A program made the position numbers and the translations under genes. Below the pieces are notes generated by a model. That model was not told the DNA's origin. It saw only the letters and a list, made by a program, of their open reading frames with translations, and ran no database searches. A stretch of 64,000 bases of DNA, taken from NCBI GenBank assembly GCA_029219585.1, contig JAQXTR010000006.1, positions 1 through 64,000 on the forward strand. Direction: 5' to 3'. The DNA comes from Clostridiales bacterium (GTDB lineage Bacteria; Bacillota; Clostridia; UBA1381). Of this stretch, positions 39,944 through 49,969 are shown in pieces (the stretch's first letter is position 1; every line of letters starts with the position of its first letter).

Positions 39944-42184
39944 TTACATTGATTTGTGGCAGGTTCTTGATATTACATCAAGCTGCTGCTCTCTTGTGAG
40001 GTCGATAAATTTAACGGCATAGCCCGATACGCGGATCGTGAAATTCGCATACTCCTCTTTTTCCGGATGCTCCATAGCGTCAATAAGCTTTTCTGTTCCG
40101 AATACATTTACATTGAGGTGATGAGCACCCTGGGCAAAATATCCGTCAAGCACTGATACAAGATTCTTTGTTCTCTGGGCGGTGTCATGACCGAGAGCAT
40201 CGGGAGAGATCGTCTGTGTATTTGAAATACCGTCAAGAGCATACTCATAAGGAAGCTTTGCAACCGAGTTGAGCGATGCGATAAGACCGTTTTTCTCCGC
40301 ACCGTATGACGGATTCGCACCCGGTGAAAGCGGCTCGCCCGCCTGTCTGCCGTCCGGCAGTGTTCCCGTCGCCTTTCCGTATACGACATTTGATGTTATT
40401 GTAAGTATCGATGTCGTAGGCTCGGAATTACGATATGTGTGATAATGCTTAAGCTTTTCCATAAAGGTCTTTAACAGCCATACAGCTATATCGTCCGCCC
40501 TGTCATCATCATTGCCGTATCTGGGGAAGTCTCCCTCCACCTCAAAGTCTGTGCAGATTCCGTCCTCATCGCGTATAGCCTTAACCTTGGCATACTTTAT
40601 TGCCGAAAGCGAATCGACAACATGAGAGAAGCCTGCTATACCTGTAGCGAAGGTTCTTCTTACATCCGTATCGATAAGCGCCATTTCCGCAGCCTCATAA
40701 TAATACTTGTCATGCATATAATGAATAAGGTTAAGTGTGTTTACATATACGCCAACAAGCCATTCCATCATAGCGTCGTACTTCTCAATTACCTCGTCAT
40801 AGTCAAGATATTCCGATGTCACAGGCTTGTATGCAGGGCCAACCTGGGTGCGCGTTTTTGCGTCAATACCGCCGTTTAACGCGTAAAGCAGACACTTTGC
40901 GAGGTTTGCTCTCGCACCGAAGAACTGCATCTCCTTACCGGTCTGTGTAGCTGATACGCAGCAGCAGATCGAATAATCATCTCCCCATACCGGCCGCATA
41001 ACATCATCATTCTCATACTGAATTGACGAGGTTATAACCGAAATTTCCGCCGCATAGCTCTTGAAGTTTTCCGGAAGTCTCTTTGTATAAAGAACGGTCA
41101 GATTAGGCTCAGGTGACGGCCCCATATTCTCCAGTGTATGAAGGAAACGGAAGTCGGTTTTTGTAACCATGTGTCTGCCGTCCTGACCTATACCCGCCAC
41201 TTCAAGCGTCGCCCATACCGGATCGCCGGAGAAGAGCTGGTTATATGAATCCGGTCTTGCAAACTTAACCATTCTCAGCTTCATAACGAAGTGGTCAATA
41301 AGCTCCTGCGCCTCCTTCTCGGTAAGAACGCCGTTTTCTATATCTCTGTTAATATATATATCAAGGAAGGTTGAAACTCTGCCGACCGACATTGCAGCAC
41401 CGTTCTGAGTCTTGATTGCGGCAAGATAACCGAAATAGAGCCACTGCACAGCCTCTTTCGCATTTGTCGCCGGAGCGGAAATATCATAGCCGTATGATTC
41501 CGCCATCCTCTTCATATCCGCAAGAGCTTTGTACTGCATCTGAATTTCTTCTCTCAAACGTATAACATCATCAGTCATAGTGCCTGAGCCGCAGTTGTCA
41601 TGATCCTTCGCCTTCTGCTCCATAAGAAAATCTATACCGTAGAGCGCAACACGTCTGTAATCTCCGACAATTCTACCTCTGCCGTATGTATCGGGAAGAC
41701 CGGTAATAATCTTATTCTTTCTTACAGCACGCATTTCAGGCGTGTACGCATCGAAAACGCCCTGGTTGTGCGTTTTATGATAATCGTTGAATATCTTGTG
41801 CATAAGCGGATCGGGAGTATAGCCGTAGTTTTCAAGCGCTCCTTCCGCCATCTTTATACCGCCGAACGGCATAAACGCACGCTTTAACGGTTTATCTGTC
41901 TGGAGTCCCACTATCTTTTCAAGCTCCTTGTCAAGATAACCCGGAGCATGTGATGTGATTGACGATACAATATCGGTATCCATATCAAGAACGCCGCCCT
42001 TGGCTCTGGCCTCCTTAAAGAGCGCCTGAAGCTCGTCCCACAGCTTATCTGTAGCCTCCGTAGGGCCCTCGAGGAATGATTTATCACCCTCATACTGCGT
42101 GTAATTATTCTGAATAAAGTCTCTTACGTTTATTTCATCCTTCCATAAACGTCCTTTAAACCCCTGCCATGCATTTGTGTTCAT
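39944..42184 (-). CDS. pflB: Pyruvate formate-lyase (formate C-acetyltransferase), intact
   Basis: 746 residues, full length. It cleaves pyruvate with CoA to acetyl-CoA and formate during anaerobic fermentation. The catalytic pair is C408-C409 (in [10 protein letters not shown]; three consecutive Cys occur here). The glycyl radical site is G721 in [32 protein letters not shown] is the substrate-binding PFL region. The radical makes it oxygen-sensitive. It has a strong promoter and sits divergently to the split PFL operon at 42436, of which it is the intact paralogue. Confidence 0.97.
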
Positions 42185-42435: not shown

Positions 42436-44508
42436 ATGGGTAAAGGACTTACGGGGGCATGGGCAGGCTTCCGCGGCGGAAGCTGGTGCCGCGGGCGTAT
42501 TGATGTACGGGATTTCATACAAAATAATTATATACCCTATACCGGGGACAAGAGTTTTCTTGAAGAACCTACCGAGGCTACAAAACAGCTGTGGAGGACC
42601 ATAACGGAGCTTTCAGAAAAGGAACGTGCGGCGGGTGGGGTTCTTGACATGGATACCGACACCGTTTCCGGCATCACCTCTCACGAGGCAGGATATATAA
42701 ACAGAGAGCTTGAAAAAATTGTCGGGTTACAGACCGACAAGCCCTTTAAGCGCGCGCTGCAGCCCTACGGCGGCATACGGATGGCAGAGACAGCCTGCCG
42801 CTCCTACGGTTATGAGGTAAGCGAAAAAGTTGATGAAATATTTACAAAATTCCGCAAAACCCATAATCAGGGAGTATTTGACGCGTACACTCCGGAAATG
42901 AAGCTTGCAAGGAAATCAGCGATAATAACCGGTCTGCCCGATGCCTACGGCAGAGGCAGAATTATAGGCGATTACCGTCGGGTAGCGCTTTACGGGATAG
43001 ACGCGCTTATTGCCGACAAGAGAAGGCAGAAGGAGCTTGTCGCCGCAGAAATGACGGAGGATAAAATACGTCTGCGTGAGGAGCTTGAGGAACAGATTAA
43101 GGCTCTTGGTGAAATAGCGGAGCTTGGACGGATTTACGGATTTGACATCACCGGACCCGCCGCAAGTGCAAAAGAGGCGGTTCAATGGCTGTATTTCGGA
43201 TTTCTGGCCGCTATTAAGCAGCAGAACGGAGCTGCAATGAGCCTTGGGCGAACCTCCACCTTTCTTGACATATATATTGAGCGTGATCTGCAAAACGGTG
43301 TGATCACAGAGATGGAGGCGCAGGAGCTGATTGACCACTTTATAATGAAGCTGCGCATCGTAAAATTTGCCAGGACACCGGAATATAACGCTCTGTTCTC
43401 CGGTGACCCCACATGGGTTACGGAATCCGTCGGCGGCATGGGCATTGACGGCAGACCGCTTGTAAGCAAAACCTCATTCCGTTATCTTCACACGCTTAAT
43501 AATCTCGGTCCCGCGCCTGAGCCTAATCTCACGGTACTCTGGTCATCACGGATGCCGGAGGGCTTTAAGGCATTCTGCGCCGAAATGTCAATAAAAACCT
43601 CGGCAATACAGTATGAAAATGACGACATTATGCGCGCTGCTCACGGCGATGATTATGCTATAGCATGCTGCGTGTCGTCAATGGCTGTCGGAAAGGAAAT
43701 GCAGTTTTTCGGAGCGCGCGCCAATCTGGCAAAATGCCTGCTCTATGCTATCAACGGAGGTACAGACGAAGTGCTCAAAATACAAGTCGGACCTGAATAT
43801 GGCCGATGCAGCGGAGAATATCTGGATTATGACGAGGTAATGAGAAAATATGACGCGATGCTTGAATGGCTTGCCGGACTGTATGTGAACACGCTCAATA
43901 TAATCCATTACATGCATGACAAATATTGCTACGAAAGCGCCCAGATGGCTCTGCACGACAGAGATGTAAAACGCTATTTTGCAACCGGTATTGCCGGACT
44001 GTCTGTTGTAGCGGATTCACTGAGTGCAATAAAATATGCAAGGGTAAAGCCTGTGCGTGATGACAGCGGCATAGCGGTTGATTATATAACCGAGGGAGAT
44101 TTCCCGAAATACGGAAACAACGATGACCGGGTTGATACAATAGCAGCAGAGCTTGTCAGCTCGTTTATGGACAAAATAAGAAAGCACCACACCTACCGCG
44201 GCGGGATACCCACAATGTCAATACTCACCATAACATCAAATGTGGTCTACGGTAAAAAGACCGGAAATACACCGGACGGACGCAAGGCCGGAGAACCGCT
44301 TGCCCCCGGTGCCAACCCGATGCATGGAAGAGACAGCAGCGGAGCGGCATCATCTCTTGCTTCTGTTGCAAAGCTGCCGTTTGCCGATGCAGAGGACGGA
44401 ATATCAAACACATTTTCAATAATCCCTGCCGCACTTGGCAAGGACTCGAGAATTTTTGTCGGAGAACCCGATCTTGACGAATTAATGAAAGGAAGTAAAG
44501 CATTATGA
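42436..44508 (+). CDS. Pyruvate formate-lyase, catalytic subunit of a split enzyme
   Basis: 690 residues. It aligns with intact PFL from its N-terminus ([26 protein letters not shown]) through the catalytic Cys pair C411-C412 (AIACCVSS), the [22 protein letters not shown] region, and [25 protein letters not shown]. Homology ends at AALGKD, followed by a unique 20-residue acidic tail ([20 protein letters not shown]). It has no glycyl-radical loop; that is encoded by the next gene, which overlaps by 4 nt (ATGA). The ATG has GGAGG about 7 nt upstream. The split falls exactly at the junction to the radical domain, so assembly of both chains is expected to restore PFL. Confidence 0.93.
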
Positions 44509-44738
44509 CACAGCAGGAAGAAAATCTCATCAGCCTCCTTGACGGATATATGGAAAAGGGCGGCCATCATCTTAATATAAATGTTTTTAACCGTGAAACA
44601 CTGCTTGACGCTCAGAAGCATCCGGAAAAATACCCTCAGCTTACCGTGCGCGTATCCGGCTATGCCGTGAACTTTTCAAAGCTTACCAAGGAGCAGCAGG
44701 ATGACGTAATCAGCAGAACCTTCCACGAAAAGACATGA
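44505..44738 (+). CDS. Glycyl-radical subunit of the split PFL (GrcA/YfiD-like)
   Basis: 77 residues. It starts [20 protein letters not shown], aligning with the intact PflB from [16 protein letters not shown] onward, and ends ISRTFHEK. The radical glycine is G52 in [11 protein letters not shown]. The layout resembles E. coli YfiD (GrcA), a spare radical domain, but here it stands in an operon with a PFL that lacks this domain. The ATG overlaps the upstream stop, and AAAGGA sits about 11 nt before it. This frame is closed by TAA at 44496-44498, so it cannot be read as a simple fusion. The stop overlaps pflA2 by 4 nt. Confidence 0.93.
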
Positions 44739-45469
44739 CAGGGCGCATACACTCCCTCGAATCCTTCGGCACGGTGGACGGTCCGGGGATACGATTTGTG
44801 GTATTCTTTCAGGGCTGTCCGATGCGCTGTCTTTACTGTCACAATCCTGACAGCTGGGATCCGAAGGGCGGCAGTGAAATGACTGCGGAGGAAATACTGC
44901 AGCAGGCGGACAGTGTGAGGGAATTTCTGAAAAACGGCGGAATAACCGCAACCGGAGGAGAGCCGCTGATGCAGCTTGAATTTCTGACCGAGCTTTTTCG
45001 CAGAGCAGCGGAGGAATACGGTTTTCACACCTGCCTTGACACATCGGGAGTCACCTTCTGCGAGAAGAATAAGAAAAAATTTGATGAGCTGATGAAATAC
45101 ACAAAGCTTGTTATGCTTGATATAAAGCATATTGATCCCGCTCTTCATAAAAAGCTCACATCACAAAAGCAGGACAATATTATAGCCTTTGCGCGCTATC
45201 TTTCCGACAACGGCATTCCGGTATGGATACGTCATGTGCTTGTTCCCGGCATAACTCAGAACGATGAACATCTTTATAAGCTTGGACAGTTCATAGGTAC
45301 TCTCAGGAACGTAAAGGCTATTGACGTTCTCCCCTATCATAATATGGGAAAGCCAAAATACGAGAAGCTCGGCATAGAATATCCGCTCAAAAACACAAGA
45401 ATCCCATCCGAGGACGAAGCGGTTCACGCACGCCGCGTCATCCTGGACGGGATGAAAACCGGCCTATAA
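44735..45469 (+). CDS. Second PFL activating enzyme, paired with the split PFL
   Basis: 244 residues, radical-SAM activase. The N-terminus is [22 protein letters not shown]; the cluster motif is CPMRCLYC at about 30-37 (C-x3-C-x2-C). ATGGEPLMQ is the glycine-rich SAM-binding motif, with DTSGV and MLDIKHID as in the other PflA. Overlap with the radical-subunit gene (ATGA) makes a coupled three-gene operon. It presumably installs the radical on G52 of the small subunit; that is inference. A 21-nt gap separates its stop from the converging adenine-deaminase-like gene. Confidence 0.94.
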
Positions 45470-45489: not shown

Positions 45490-47034
45490 TTATGTATGAT
45501 AAAACGACATCAAAGACCGGAACGGCTCAAGCTCTCTGCTTACACCCAGGCTGTACGCCGCCTCTTTAAGACTGCTATATTCCCTGTTGACTATATCCGC
45601 AGGTCTGTCAGTCATAAGTCCCGCGATTTCAAGCTCAAGCAGCGCAGAGGCTTTTCCGCCCGATGCAACGCATATCCCGCCCTTGCAGCCAAGCGCGTTC
45701 AGCGCAGCTGCCATATCCTCGTCATTATCACCGGCAATAATAATTTTATGAGGATCAGGGAAACAGGAGGATGCGACAGCGCCGTTTGTGATACCATAGC
45801 CTGTAATGCAGAAAAAGCTTCTTCCCTCACCGCTTCGGTCGGCAATACAGACCTTGGTACACTTAACCGTCCCGTCCGAGACATTCCTTGCCTCGGATGG
45901 GCGGGAGGGACACAGATCTACAGCGGAAATCTCATCATATACCTCACGTTCAAAGAAGTCCGGCTCAGCTCTGCCTGTGCGGATGGTATCGGACAAGCCC
46001 GATGAGTCTGTAGGTTCGGATGAAAACAGAGCTTTTCCGTCCTGTGCGGCCTTAACTCCGTTTTTGAAAACCTGCTCAACATTAAAGTCAACGAGACTGC
46101 TTACGATAATAATATCCGCCTTGTATCCCGGAGCAATTGCGCCTACCTTATCAAGACCGTAGCATCGGGCTGCGCAGAAGGATGCCACAGCAGCCGCTAC
46201 AATCGGCTGAACACCCAGCTCCACAGCTGTTTTTACCATATAATCAAGTGTGCCGCTGCTAAGAATATCACCTATAAAACGATCATCCGTGCAAAAGGTA
46301 AAGCTGCGGAAATTAAGATTATTCACCGCAAAAATAAGTCTGTTAAGGTCCTTTGAAAAGGTTCCCTCACGGATAGCAACATAAAGTCCTCTGCTGATTT
46401 TTTCGAGCATTTCATGTACATCACGGCATTTATGGTCAATTGTAACTCCGGAGCAAACGTATGCGTCAAGCTTCTTGCCGAAAACTCCCGGCATATGACA
46501 GTCCACATTTCTTGCCTGTATTATATGCCTTAATTTTTCATCGGCGTTGACTATGCCCTCAGGCTCGGTCCGTCCGCTGATGCCTATACAGCTGCCGCCC
46601 GGCTTCGTATCACCGCCGTCAAACAATTCATCGCAATCAATCGGGAGTATTGTTTTAATATCAAGCGGCAGCCCCTCAGCCGCTTTTTCCATGTATCTGA
46701 CGCCACTTCCGCCGCACACCCCGGCAATCGACACCGGATTGGAAATCACGGTGGTAACTCCGTGCGGAACGACAGCTTCCGCATAACGGCGCGGTGAAAC
46801 CATTGACGCTTCTATACTTACATACGAATCGATAAAGCCGGGCAGAATATATTTTCCCGAAGCATCAATTGTATTTGCGCAGTCATAGTCGCCGACCCCG
46901 CATATTCTTCCTCCGCGTACCAGTACATCACGCTGAAGAAATCTTCCCGAAAATATATCGGCAACATAACCGTTCTTGATGACAAAATCGGCAGGCTCCT
47001 GTTCCATAACAGTTTTAATGAGTGTCTTAATCAT
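45490..47034 (-). CDS. Adenine deaminase homologue with degenerate metal site
   Basis: 514 residues with the full amidohydrolase layout: N-terminal beta-sandwich (DFVIKNGYVADIFSG), TIM barrel, and C-terminal Ade domain (IIIAGDNDEDMAAALNAL, GGICVASGGKASALLELEIAGLMTD). The first metal-binding HxH of amidohydrolases, normally in GFIDxHxHIE, is Y71-V-S73 (GFIDSYVSIEASM). The usual DPHE is NPVS (99-102). The later His in DCHMPG, IDHK and the Asp in CTDDR remain. Loss of the two N-terminal His ligands makes canonical adenine deamination unlikely, though a one-metal or different reaction is possible. It lies 19 nt after trkH. Confidence 0.85.
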   Translation of the reverse strand: MIKTLIKTVMEQEPADFVIKNGYVADIFSGRFLQRDVLVRGGRICGVGDYDCANTIDASGKYILPGFIDSYVSIEASMVSPRRYAEAVVPHGVTTVISNPVSIAGVCGGSGVRYMEKAAEGLPLDIKTILPIDCDELFDGGDTKPGGSCIGISGRTEPEGIVNADEKLRHIIQARNVDCHMPGVFGKKLDAYVCSGVTIDHKCRDVHEMLEKISRGLYVAIREGTFSKDLNRLIFAVNNLNFRSFTFCTDDRFIGDILSSGTLDYMVKTAVELGVQPIVAAAVASFCAARCYGLDKVGAIAPGYKADIIIVSSLVDFNVEQVFKNGVKAAQDGKALFSSEPTDSSGLSDTIRTGRAEPDFFEREVYDEISAVDLCPSRPSEARNVSDGTVKCTKVCIADRSGEGRSFFCITGYGITNGAVASSCFPDPHKIIIAGDNDEDMAAALNALGCKGGICVASGGKASALLELEIAGLMTDRPADIVNREYSSLKEAAYSLGVSRELEPFRSLMSFYHT

Positions 47035-47053
47035 TGCAGTATATCCTTTCTTG

Positions 47054-48541
47054 TTATCTGTATATACGTATCCCCCTGTTCGGGCAGAATATGCTCCTCC
47101 AGAACTCCGGTGTAATAAGTATCAGCATGGGATAAAGCTCCAGACGTCCCGCAAGCATATCAAATATCATAACATATTTCGAAAAGTACGTGAATGCCGA
47201 AAAGCTTTCGGTAGGTCCTGCCATGCTCATGCCCGGACCTATATTATTGATCGTTGCCGCGACCGCGGTAAAGGTCGTGGTGAAATCAAAATTATCAATT
47301 GACACGAGCAGCACTGATACTACAAAAGTAAAAATGTATGCCATGATAAACACGTTCGTTGAACGTATTGTTTCATGGGCAATCGGCTTGTGCTCATTCT
47401 TTATAAGAACAACCCTCTGAGGGTGGAAAAACAGCGTCATTTCCTTTTTCACGGTTTTAAACAGAATTGAAACTCTCGACACCTTTATGCCGCCTCCCGT
47501 GCTGCCTGCGCACGCACCGACAAACATCAGCGCCACAAGAATTAAATTTGCAGTCTGCGGCCACAGATTATCGTAGTCAATAGTTGAAAATCCCGTTGTT
47601 GTCATAATTGAGGTAACCTGAAAAAATGTGTGTCTGAGCTTTTCGGCAAAGCTCATATCCGCCAGACACCCTCTGCTTATAACCGAAAGCATGATAAATA
47701 CGCAGGCGGCAATTATTATAAGAACATAGTTTCTTATTTCCTCATAGGAAAAAGCTGCCTTAAAGCTTCTGCGTATAAGCAGGAAATAAAAACCGAAGTT
47801 CATCCCGAAAAGCATCATAAAGACGGCTACAATCCATTGTATCGCTGCGGAGTATCCCGCCATACTGTCTGACTTTATACCGAATCCGCCTGTACCCGCC
47901 GTTCCTGCTGCCGTTGTTACAGCATCAAATATCGGCATTCCCGCGTATACGAGAAACGCAAATTCAAGAACTGTAAGTGCAAAATAAATGGCATACAAAA
48001 CAAACGCTGTATGACGCACCTTCGGCAAAAGCTTATCCACCGACGGTCCGGGACTTTCCGCCTTCATTATATGCATATGCGAGCCGCCCGTCATAGGAAT
48101 AAGCGCAAGCAAAAATACCAGCACTCCCATTCCGCCCAGCCAGTGAGTAAAGCTGCGCCAGAACAGAGATGCACGAGAAAGGGATTCAATATCATCAAGT
48201 ATGCTTGCTCCGGTTGTTGTAAAGCCCGACACAGTTTCAAACAAAGCGTCGGTGAAATTGGGGATGTCACCGTTTATTACAAACGGGAGACATCCGAAAA
48301 CGCTGAGCATAATCCATGACAGCGACGTAACCGCAAAGCCCTCCCGCGCAAAAAAATTCATATTCTTCGGCTTTTTTATCACGATCAGAGTGCCTAGCAG
48401 TATACATATGAGCGCAACACCAAGGAACGGTACGCCCTGAGGCTCATTGTATATTACGGATACGGCAAAAGGAAGCAGCATAAATGCTCCCTCAATATTC
48501 AGTATCCATCCGAGTATGTATAATACCGACCTGAAATTCAC
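47054..48541 (-). CDS. trkH: Trk/Ktr potassium uptake membrane subunit
   Basis: 495 residues, TrkH-type with about ten membrane helices. The four pore-loop (selectivity-filter-like) segments are recognisable: FETVSGFTTTGAS, AGTAGTGGFGIKSDS, TSIMTTTGFSTIDYD and NNIGPGM. In each, a central Gly lines the K+ path. It takes up K+ together with the cytoplasmic regulator TrkA, encoded 24 nt upstream in the same operon. GdpP in this window degrades c-di-AMP, a known regulator of such K+ systems in Firmicutes; a link here is inference. Confidence 0.94.
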   Translation of the reverse strand: MNFRSVLYILGWILNIEGAFMLLPFAVSVIYNEPQGVPFLGVALICILLGTLIVIKKPKNMNFFAREGFAVTSLSWIMLSVFGCLPFVINGDIPNFTDALFETVSGFTTTGASILDDIESLSRASLFWRSFTHWLGGMGVLVFLLALIPMTGGSHMHIMKAESPGPSVDKLLPKVRHTAFVLYAIYFALTVLEFAFLVYAGMPIFDAVTTAAGTAGTGGFGIKSDSMAGYSAAIQWIVAVFMMLFGMNFGFYFLLIRRSFKAAFSYEEIRNYVLIIIAACVFIMLSVISRGCLADMSFAEKLRHTFFQVTSIMTTTGFSTIDYDNLWPQTANLILVALMFVGACAGSTGGGIKVSRVSILFKTVKKEMTLFFHPQRVVLIKNEHKPIAHETIRSTNVFIMAYIFTFVVSVLLVSIDNFDFTTTFTAVAATINNIGPGMSMAGPTESFSAFTYFSKYVMIFDMLAGRLELYPMLILITPEFWRSIFCPNRGIRIYR

Positions 48542-48565: not shown

Positions 48566-49969
48566 TTATGCGAGAATATCGCGGATATTGTCAAAACCGG
48601 AATGGGTTGTGACAATAATTACTGAATCTCCGCGTTTAATACAGTCCGTACCGCTGGGTATAAATGATTTGCCGCCACGGATAACCGAGGCTATAAGCAG
48701 ATTGTTCTTAAGACTGAGATCTCTGAGCGGAACATTGGTGTATTCCGCATCCGACTCTATTTTAAATTCTATTGCCTCAACTCTGTCGTCAAACAATCGG
48801 TAAATCGTTTCGATATTGCTTCCGATCGAATTTTTCTTTGCTCTGACATAGGTTCTTATCGTTTCCGCGGTCACGTAACGCGGATACACAATACTGCCCA
48901 GCTCCAGGGCGTTTACCACACCCGAAAAGTTTATGTGATTGATCTTCGTAATGACCTTGACATCCGGATTTGCACGGAGCGCATACAGGGAAAGCAGGAT
49001 ATTTTCTTCATCAATTCCCGTAAGCGGTATAACTGCGCCGATTTGCTCTATTCCCTCCTGAAGAAGAAGTGATTCGTCCGTTCCGTCGCCGTTCACTATC
49101 ACAACATTTGGCGGGAGCAGCTCACTCAACTCCTGACATCGGGAAAGGCTCATCTCAATAATCTTAACCGATATTCCCGATCCGCACAGATACTTTGCCA
49201 AATGATAGGATGTCTTTCCGCCTCCTATTATTATCGCAGAGCTTACCCTGCGGCTGCTCATTTTTATTTTCCTGAAAAACTTATAGGCATTACGCGGCGG
49301 AGCGATGATTGACACAACATCCCCTGACATAAGCCTGAACTGACCGTTGGGAATTATAACCTCATTCCCGCGTTCGACAACACATACAAGAACGTCAAAA
49401 CCGTCCCCGCCCTGAAAATCCGTAAGCTGCATACCGTTAAGACAGCTCGCTGCCGGAATTTTAAAGCGGATCATGTCCACAGAGCCTCTTGCAAACGCAT
49501 TCACCGACAAAGCATAAGGGAAATGCATTATTCTGTTGATTTCCTTAGCCGCTTCAAGCTCCGGGTTGAGTATCATAGTAATACCAAGCTTATCGCGCAG
49601 ATAGCTCAGCTCATCCGTATAGTCCGGGTTTCGTACACGCGCTATTGAAGCACAGTTACCTACCTTCTTCGCAAGGGTACAGCAGAGAAGATTCAGCTCG
49701 TCCGAATCCGTAACAGCTATAATGAGATCGGCATTTTCAATTCCCGCCTCAATAAGCGTACCATAGCTTGATCCGTTTCCCGTAATTCCCATAACATCAT
49801 ACATCGTGCTGAGACGATTCACACGATCAGCATTTTTATCTACTATTGTAACATTATTTCCCTCAGCAGTGAGCTTGTCTGCGAGAGTAGCACCGATTTT
49901 ACCGGCTCCTACAATAATTATCCGCAGTGACTTTTCACTTTTGGGTATCAGTTTATGAAATATGGCCAT
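48566..49969 (-). CDS. trkA: Trk potassium regulatory subunit TrkA
   Basis: 467 residues made of two RCK halves. Each half starts with a Rossmann NAD-binding motif: IIVGAGKIGATLADKL near 19 and IIIGGGKTSYHLAKYL near 240. VTIVDKNADRVNRL and VKIIEMSLSRCQEL are the acidic strand-end motifs that bind the ribose. TrkA_C domains follow each. It gates the TrkH channel through NAD(H) or ATP. The start has AAGGAGG 8-9 nt upstream. It is the first gene of trkA-trkH-adenine deaminase-like. Confidence 0.95.
   Translation of the reverse strand: MAIFHKLIPKSEKSLRIIIVGAGKIGATLADKLTAEGNNVTIVDKNADRVNRLSTMYDVMGITGNGSSYGTLIEAGIENADLIIAVTDSDELNLLCCTLAKKVGNCASIARVRNPDYTDELSYLRDKLGITMILNPELEAAKEINRIMHFPYALSVNAFARGSVDMIRFKIPAASCLNGMQLTDFQGGDGFDVLVCVVERGNEVIIPNGQFRLMSGDVVSIIAPPRNAYKFFRKIKMSSRRVSSAIIIGGGKTSYHLAKYLCGSGISVKIIEMSLSRCQELSELLPPNVVIVNGDGTDESLLLQEGIEQIGAVIPLTGIDEENILLSLYALRANPDVKVITKINHINFSGVVNALELGSIVYPRYVTAETIRTYVRAKKNSIGSNIETIYRLFDDRVEAIEFKIESDAEYTNVPLRDLSLKNNLLIASVIRGGKSFIPSGTDCIKRGDSVIIVTTHSGFDNIRDILA

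Follow-up and report, generated by a model that had tools for sequence, protein, structure and literature searches.

A catalytically degenerate adenine deaminase orthologue in a Clostridiales genome that also encodes adenine phosphoribosyltransferase

Adenine phosphoribosyltransferase (Apt) converts adenine directly to AMP, and adenine deaminase (Ade) converts it to hypoxanthine, which is then converted to IMP by Hpt. Because they use adenine by different routes, Apt and Ade are alternatives to each other. The Ade homologue YerA has six metal ligands, His87, His89, Glu179, His210, His231 and Asp283, with Glu179 bridging (PMC12133300). The E. coli N-acetylglucosamine-6-phosphate deacetylase NagA is active with one metal and contains QxN in place of HxH (PMC6016474), so that loss of HxH alone should not be called fatal. 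Pseudo-dihydroorotases, including pDHO of P. aeruginosa and the fungal pDHO domain, are inactive amidohydrolases that serve ATCase assembly, and the fungal domain is described as being without zinc ligands and substrate residues (PMC7053772). A search of the open literature found no relevant papers on an adenine deaminase pseudoenzyme.

The stretch of DNA analysed here (the window, 64,000 nucleotides) contains an ade-like ORF that starts with ATG and runs in one uninterrupted frame for 514 aa; the original prediction, which was made from the sequence alone, also described the frame as intact. Its product matches PF13382 (95 bits) and PF01979 (80 bits), and contains the amidohydrolase TIM barrel and the Ade C-terminal domain, the last portion of which is truncated. 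Its score against the Ade equivalog TIGR01178 is 316 bits, under the curated cut-off of 472.5, and the best solved relative is 3nqb, the adenine deaminase of Agrobacterium (Atu4426, E 5e-60). The features of the locus are as follows.

45490..47034, minus strand: ade-like gene, 514 aa, catalytically degenerate adenine deaminase (PF13382, PF01979, TIGR01178 and 3nqb matches)
46816..46824, minus strand: Y71-V72-S73 where the beta-1 HxH metal ligands are expected (alignment and DNA)
46729..46740, minus strand: N99-P-V-S102 where DPHE is expected (alignment and DNA)
46639..46641, minus strand: position at which an active-site loop is deleted (relatives have SCVPATPFEHSG; 8+1 residues gone; alignment)
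46573..46575, minus strand: G154 where the bridging Glu ligand is expected, Glu179 in YerA numbering (alignment and DNA; roles from PMC12133300)
46495..46497, minus strand: H180, beta-5 metal ligand, retained, in CHMP instead of GHAP (alignment)
46432..46434, minus strand: H201, beta-6 metal ligand, retained, in DHK instead of DHE (alignment)
46285..46287, minus strand: D250, beta-8 ligand and general base, retained in CTDDR (alignment)
45490..45510, minus strand: 3' end, truncated, without the conserved C-terminal tail of Ade (20 bp between the stop and the end of the convergent pflA)
47044..47049, minus strand: Shine-Dalgarno-like AAAGGA, 9 nt 5' of the ATG
47054..48541, minus strand: trkH, same direction, upstream of the ade-like gene
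48566..49969, minus strand: trkA

The original prediction reported YVS in place of HxH and NPVS in place of DPHE, with the later ligands retained. Both replacements were read in the DNA (TAT GTA AGT for Y71-V-S73, AAT CCG GTG TCG for N99-P-V-S102), and H180, H201 and D250 are indeed present. Several of the altered motif codons are at least two base changes from the ancestral codon, and one read error therefore cannot account for them. The loss of N-terminal metal ligands is real, but its extent was understated: the bridging-Glu motif GIGEMM has become GISGRT, with G154 at the Glu position, the active-site loop is deleted, G179 and E202 are changed to Cys and Lys, and the C-domain motif HDSHN has become PDPHK. 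Three of the six ligands are thus lost (the HxH pair and the bridging Glu), and the beta-5 His, beta-6 His and beta-8 Asp remain. Without HxH and the bridging Glu, the alpha metal would have no site and the beta metal would be left with only two His, so that no binuclear hydroxide would be available to attack C6 of adenine, and the protein would be a pseudoenzyme. Judged from the lost ligands, the loss of deaminase activity is well supported.

The AlphaFold model of the window protein (pLDDT 84, pTM 0.87; canonical control 91, 0.91) predicts with confidence that an Ade-like fold is kept, and a Foldseek search with this predicted model gave 3nqb as the best PDB match (TM 0.84–0.87). The window protein shares with Ade/AdeC (TIGR01178; 3nqb) the domain order, the fold, 29% structure-based identity and the three retained ligands, but is without the HxH, bridging Glu, DPHE, loop and C-terminal tail, and scores below the family cut-off. 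Divergence is unevenly distributed along the protein (chi-square 37, 12 df, higher than in any simulation) and highest at residues 121–160 and 361–440. The weakest regions of the model fall in these two stretches, and include the low-confidence pocket loops 139–147 and 377–380.

A one-metal or otherwise altered enzyme could in principle be assembled from H180, H201 and D250 together with a new carboxylate, for example E158 or E160 in GRTEPE, and act on another substrate. Retention of three ligands is consistent with this, and mononuclear NagA, which like the window protein has HxH replaced, is an active precedent (PMC6016474); the window protein differs from NagA, however, in having Gly at the Glu position as well. 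The substrate loop, DPHE and HDSHN are lost too, and the pocket loops lie in the most divergent stretches. To our knowledge, the mononuclear amidohydrolase forms keep either Glu or HxH, whereas both are gone here, and we consider such an enzyme very improbable.

The description of the protein as full length in the original prediction was roughly right, but Ades of the same genus are 546–560 aa, compared with 514 aa here. The SCVPATPFEHSG loop is 9 aa shorter than in relatives, and the conserved tail LPLPVIPEIRITDSGLFDV (about 25–30 aa; consensus LPLPVIPxxxxTDxGLFDV in relatives) is absent, the window protein stopping ahead of it. No frameshifted remnant of the tail was found in three frames from the 3' end of the ade-like gene up to the neighbouring gene. 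In the order trkA-trkH-ade, 19 bp separate the trkH stop from the ade-like gene, the stop of which is 20 bp from the end of the convergent pflA. Most genomes of the genus that carry Ade have the gene immediately ahead of a beta-galactosidase gene followed by a CYTH-domain gene (ade-bgal-CYTH), and in relatives without Ade the next gene after trkA-trkH is this bgal (trkA-trkH-bgal-CYTH) or CYTH. These three adjacencies would fit a single ancestral order, trkA-trkH-ade-bgal-CYTH, with vertical descent and clean loss of ade in the relatives. In the window genome, CYTH is on a different contig and no close bgal was found, and the break that removed them is therefore also the probable cause of the 3' truncation of ade.

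Motifs were compared in an alignment of 40 relatives, leaving out L040, a spurious reading frame. HxH, DPHE, the beta-4 Glu, GHAP, DHE and TDD are present essentially everywhere in this panel, and the same columns in the window protein read YVS, NPVS, Gly, CHMP, DHK and TDD. HxH and Glu are kept by every other Ade inspected, covering the family, distant relatives and low-scoring sequences in 392 genomes of the class, where twenty low-scoring or odd ones were read (20/20 with HxH and Glu). The score of 316 bits is the lowest for any full-length Ade-like ORF in the 392 genomes; the 31 remaining Ades of the order all reach at least 413 bits against TIGR01178 (30 above the cut-off, one partial). 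No other Ade without HxH was found in the family, the order or the 392 class genomes, and no relatives of the window protein were found on viral contigs. The original prediction suggested checking whether YxS and NPVS are conserved as a clade, and they are not: a single sequence carries them, and all homologues have a normal HxH in the same column, an outcome named there as speaking against the prediction. With normal HxH in all homologues, no family-wide change of function is shown, and because the altered residues occur in one genome only, their conservation cannot be demonstrated. On the question of another intact Ade in the window genome, none was found (assembly 92% complete).

A chimeric or error-ridden sequence of the metagenome-assembled genome was also considered. 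The assembly consists of 99 contigs with 2.5% contamination, and one contig (C44) looks foreign. However, the changes span the whole gene without a frameshift, nadB, trkA and trkH on the same contig are normally diverged, and the flanking gene order matches that of the genus, leaving an artefact highly improbable.

In the Ade tree, the window protein nests within the clade of the genus with support of 100/100, beside the Ade of genome G043. The window protein has accumulated 1.11 changes per site on its end branch, compared with 0.099 for this sister (about 11x faster), and the genome is not fast overall (NadB branch 0.17, Der 0.021). The NadB and Der trees group the window genome with Ade-less species and not with G043, in conflict with the Ade tree, and the five species closest by Der have no ade at all. 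A clade formed by the six other Ades of the genus is disfavoured in an AU test (P 0.02). The conflict between the Ade tree and the species tree may reflect a long branch or a transfer. The nesting in the genus clade and the shared chromosomal neighbourhood (trkH-ade-bgal order) identify the ade-like gene, at the level of sequence, as an orthologue of the adenine deaminase of the genus.

Because synonymous sites are saturated, pairwise dN/dS was set aside, and a branch-wise codon model and a stop-codon simulation were used instead. Omega on the window branch was 0.18–0.24 (background 0.10), a branch average over saturated synonymous sites, and omega = 1 was rejected by 28.7 or 13.8 lnL units under two tree topologies. 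No stops were seen, whereas neutral divergence to the same level predicts 3.3–6.7 (P 0–0.035), and each of the three internal indels is a multiple of three. Always-hydrophobic positions were still hydrophobic at 83 of 91 sites (neutral 76, sd 3), and replaced residues were more conservative than the neutral expectation. The marks of a neutral pseudogene, stops or frameshifts and an omega near 1, were thus not seen, with only the 3' truncation present. Among conserved sites, changes more than 5 residues from a ligand were more conservative than neutral (P about 0.001) and those within 5 residues resembled neutral changes (P about 0.3), although the direct contrast was not significant (Mann-Whitney P 0.30) and the split was chosen after the data had been seen.

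Other measures point towards relaxation. Only 52 of 74 invariant columns are kept in the window protein, whereas two canonical Ades on long branches, L029 and L039, keep 79/85 and 81/85, corresponding to a loss of 30% against 2–7% in functional Ades, long-branch ones included. Retention of the ancestral residue is nearly independent of site conservation (0.70 at invariant and 0.56 at the most variable sites), a flat profile that looks like relaxed selection. The gene could thus be in ordinary decay, an Apt-redundant copy caught before its first stop that has lost active-site residues and tail by chance or rearrangement, with deletion to follow. In addition to the loss of invariant columns and the flat profile, the nearest species have lost ade, and the tail was cut, probably in the rearrangement through which bgal was lost and CYTH relocated. 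Set against this are the absence of the 3–7 stops expected, the rejection of omega = 1, the in-frame indels and the conservative substitutions. Simple neutral decay is disfavoured, and we regard ordinary decay as plausible, at less than even weight; the two may also be combined, with a long time under constraint and a short free phase after it. The reading in the original prediction of a changed function rather than decay holds in so far as frame and fold are more constrained than neutral decay predicts, but is weakened by its dependence on one sequence, the invariant-column loss, the loss of the gene in sister species and the probable cut at the 3' end.

A likely cause of the loss, left out of the original prediction, is the presence of Apt in the same genome. 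Among 16 genomes of the genus, apt was found above the family cut-off only in the window genome. In the family (70 genomes), 31 contain an intact Ade, 8 contain Apt and none contains both (Fisher P 0.0065); after correction for phylogeny the exclusion is not significant (0 of 4–5 independent pairs in the same direction, 2–3 opposite), in a test that is without power because there are only 4–5 independent gains. The four Ade-less genomes of one genus (g7) are exactly its four Apt genomes, and within the family Apt occurs together with an Ade-derived gene only in the window genome. The five Ade-less sister species are also without Apt, and the loss of Ade there therefore needs another cause.

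The apt gene sits between secF and der, a site at which nothing is present in G043, G047 and G041. Contamination as the source of the apt contig was ruled out by its 4-mer profile, which correlates with that of the window contig at r 0.973 (C44: 0.768), and by the SecF tree, the contig with the odd SecF being C44. With its foreign 4-mer profile and an additional secDF belonging to the G036/G034 lineage, C44 (L121) is a probable contaminant of the assembly. Beside apt, also between secF and der, is a 554-aa ORF without a Pfam match (L103:6811-8472, contig C29 of the window genome, G000), apparently part of the same insertion.

We consider it somewhat probable that the window gene encodes a redundant, catalytically dead Ade with a weakly constrained fold, following acquisition of Apt on its own lineage. 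The cell would have gained a direct route from adenine to AMP, making the route through hypoxanthine to IMP probably redundant, and the Ade orthologue would then have lost its deaminase activity; the order of these events and the causal role of Apt are what we infer. Selection would have weakened, with substitutions outside the active site still compatible with the fold. Given the open reading frame behind trkA-trkH and the ribosome-binding site, the protein is most likely still made and folded, and would be catalytically dead. This dead Ade is possibly repurposed, or on its way out.

The nearest known analogue appears to be the pseudo-dihydroorotases, with which the window protein would share an amidohydrolase fold and a lost activity, the latter predicted for the window protein. 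Pseudo-dihydroorotases are conserved families with a known partner, whereas the window protein is Ade-derived, confined to a single lineage and has no known partner. Recruitment of the dead Ade to a non-catalytic role in purine binding or assembly, for example for the trkA-trkH potassium transporter or for Apt-based salvage, is unlikely; such a protein would be, as far as we know, the first pseudoenzyme derived from an adenine deaminase.

The gene may offer a snapshot of enzyme displacement by the unrelated Apt, in which the catalytic site has gone and the fold and frame persist. It gives a way of studying for how long an enzyme remains after its activity is lost and whether it acquires another role. 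Automatic annotation may label the protein adenine deaminase, although deamination of adenine by it in the cell is improbable.

Elsewhere in the class, two kinds of Ade paralogue were observed. One group, 67–81% identical, comprises L187, L201, L202, L203 and L205 (G327, G229, G385, G250 and G150), from other families. These contain DGNAP for DGHAP, replacing the beta-5 metal His with Asn, and AL(T/A)P for SCVP, and sit about 7–8 kb from an intact Ade in these contigs. Like the window protein they have an altered metal ligand, but unlike it they keep HxH and Glu, form a conserved group and have an intact Ade nearby, making them a better candidate than the window gene for a neofunctionalised Ade clade. 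The other kind, L198 and L199 (G295 and G430), lies about 126 bp from an intact Ade, and has Cys for the beta-5 His, GLDE for DPHE and PDDNN for HDSHN.

Beside the ade-like gene is a split pyruvate formate-lyase (PFL) on the plus strand (42436-44508, 44505-44738 and 44735-45469). The 690-aa PFL (42436-44508) does not include the glycyl-radical end; the RVSGYAV glycyl-radical motif is on a 77-aa ORF of its own (GrcA/YfiD-like). The pfl, radical-domain and pflA ORFs are joined through two ATGA stop-start overlaps, an arrangement more suggestive of translational coupling than of a frameshift. Adjoining the split PFL is a complete one (39944-42184, minus strand).
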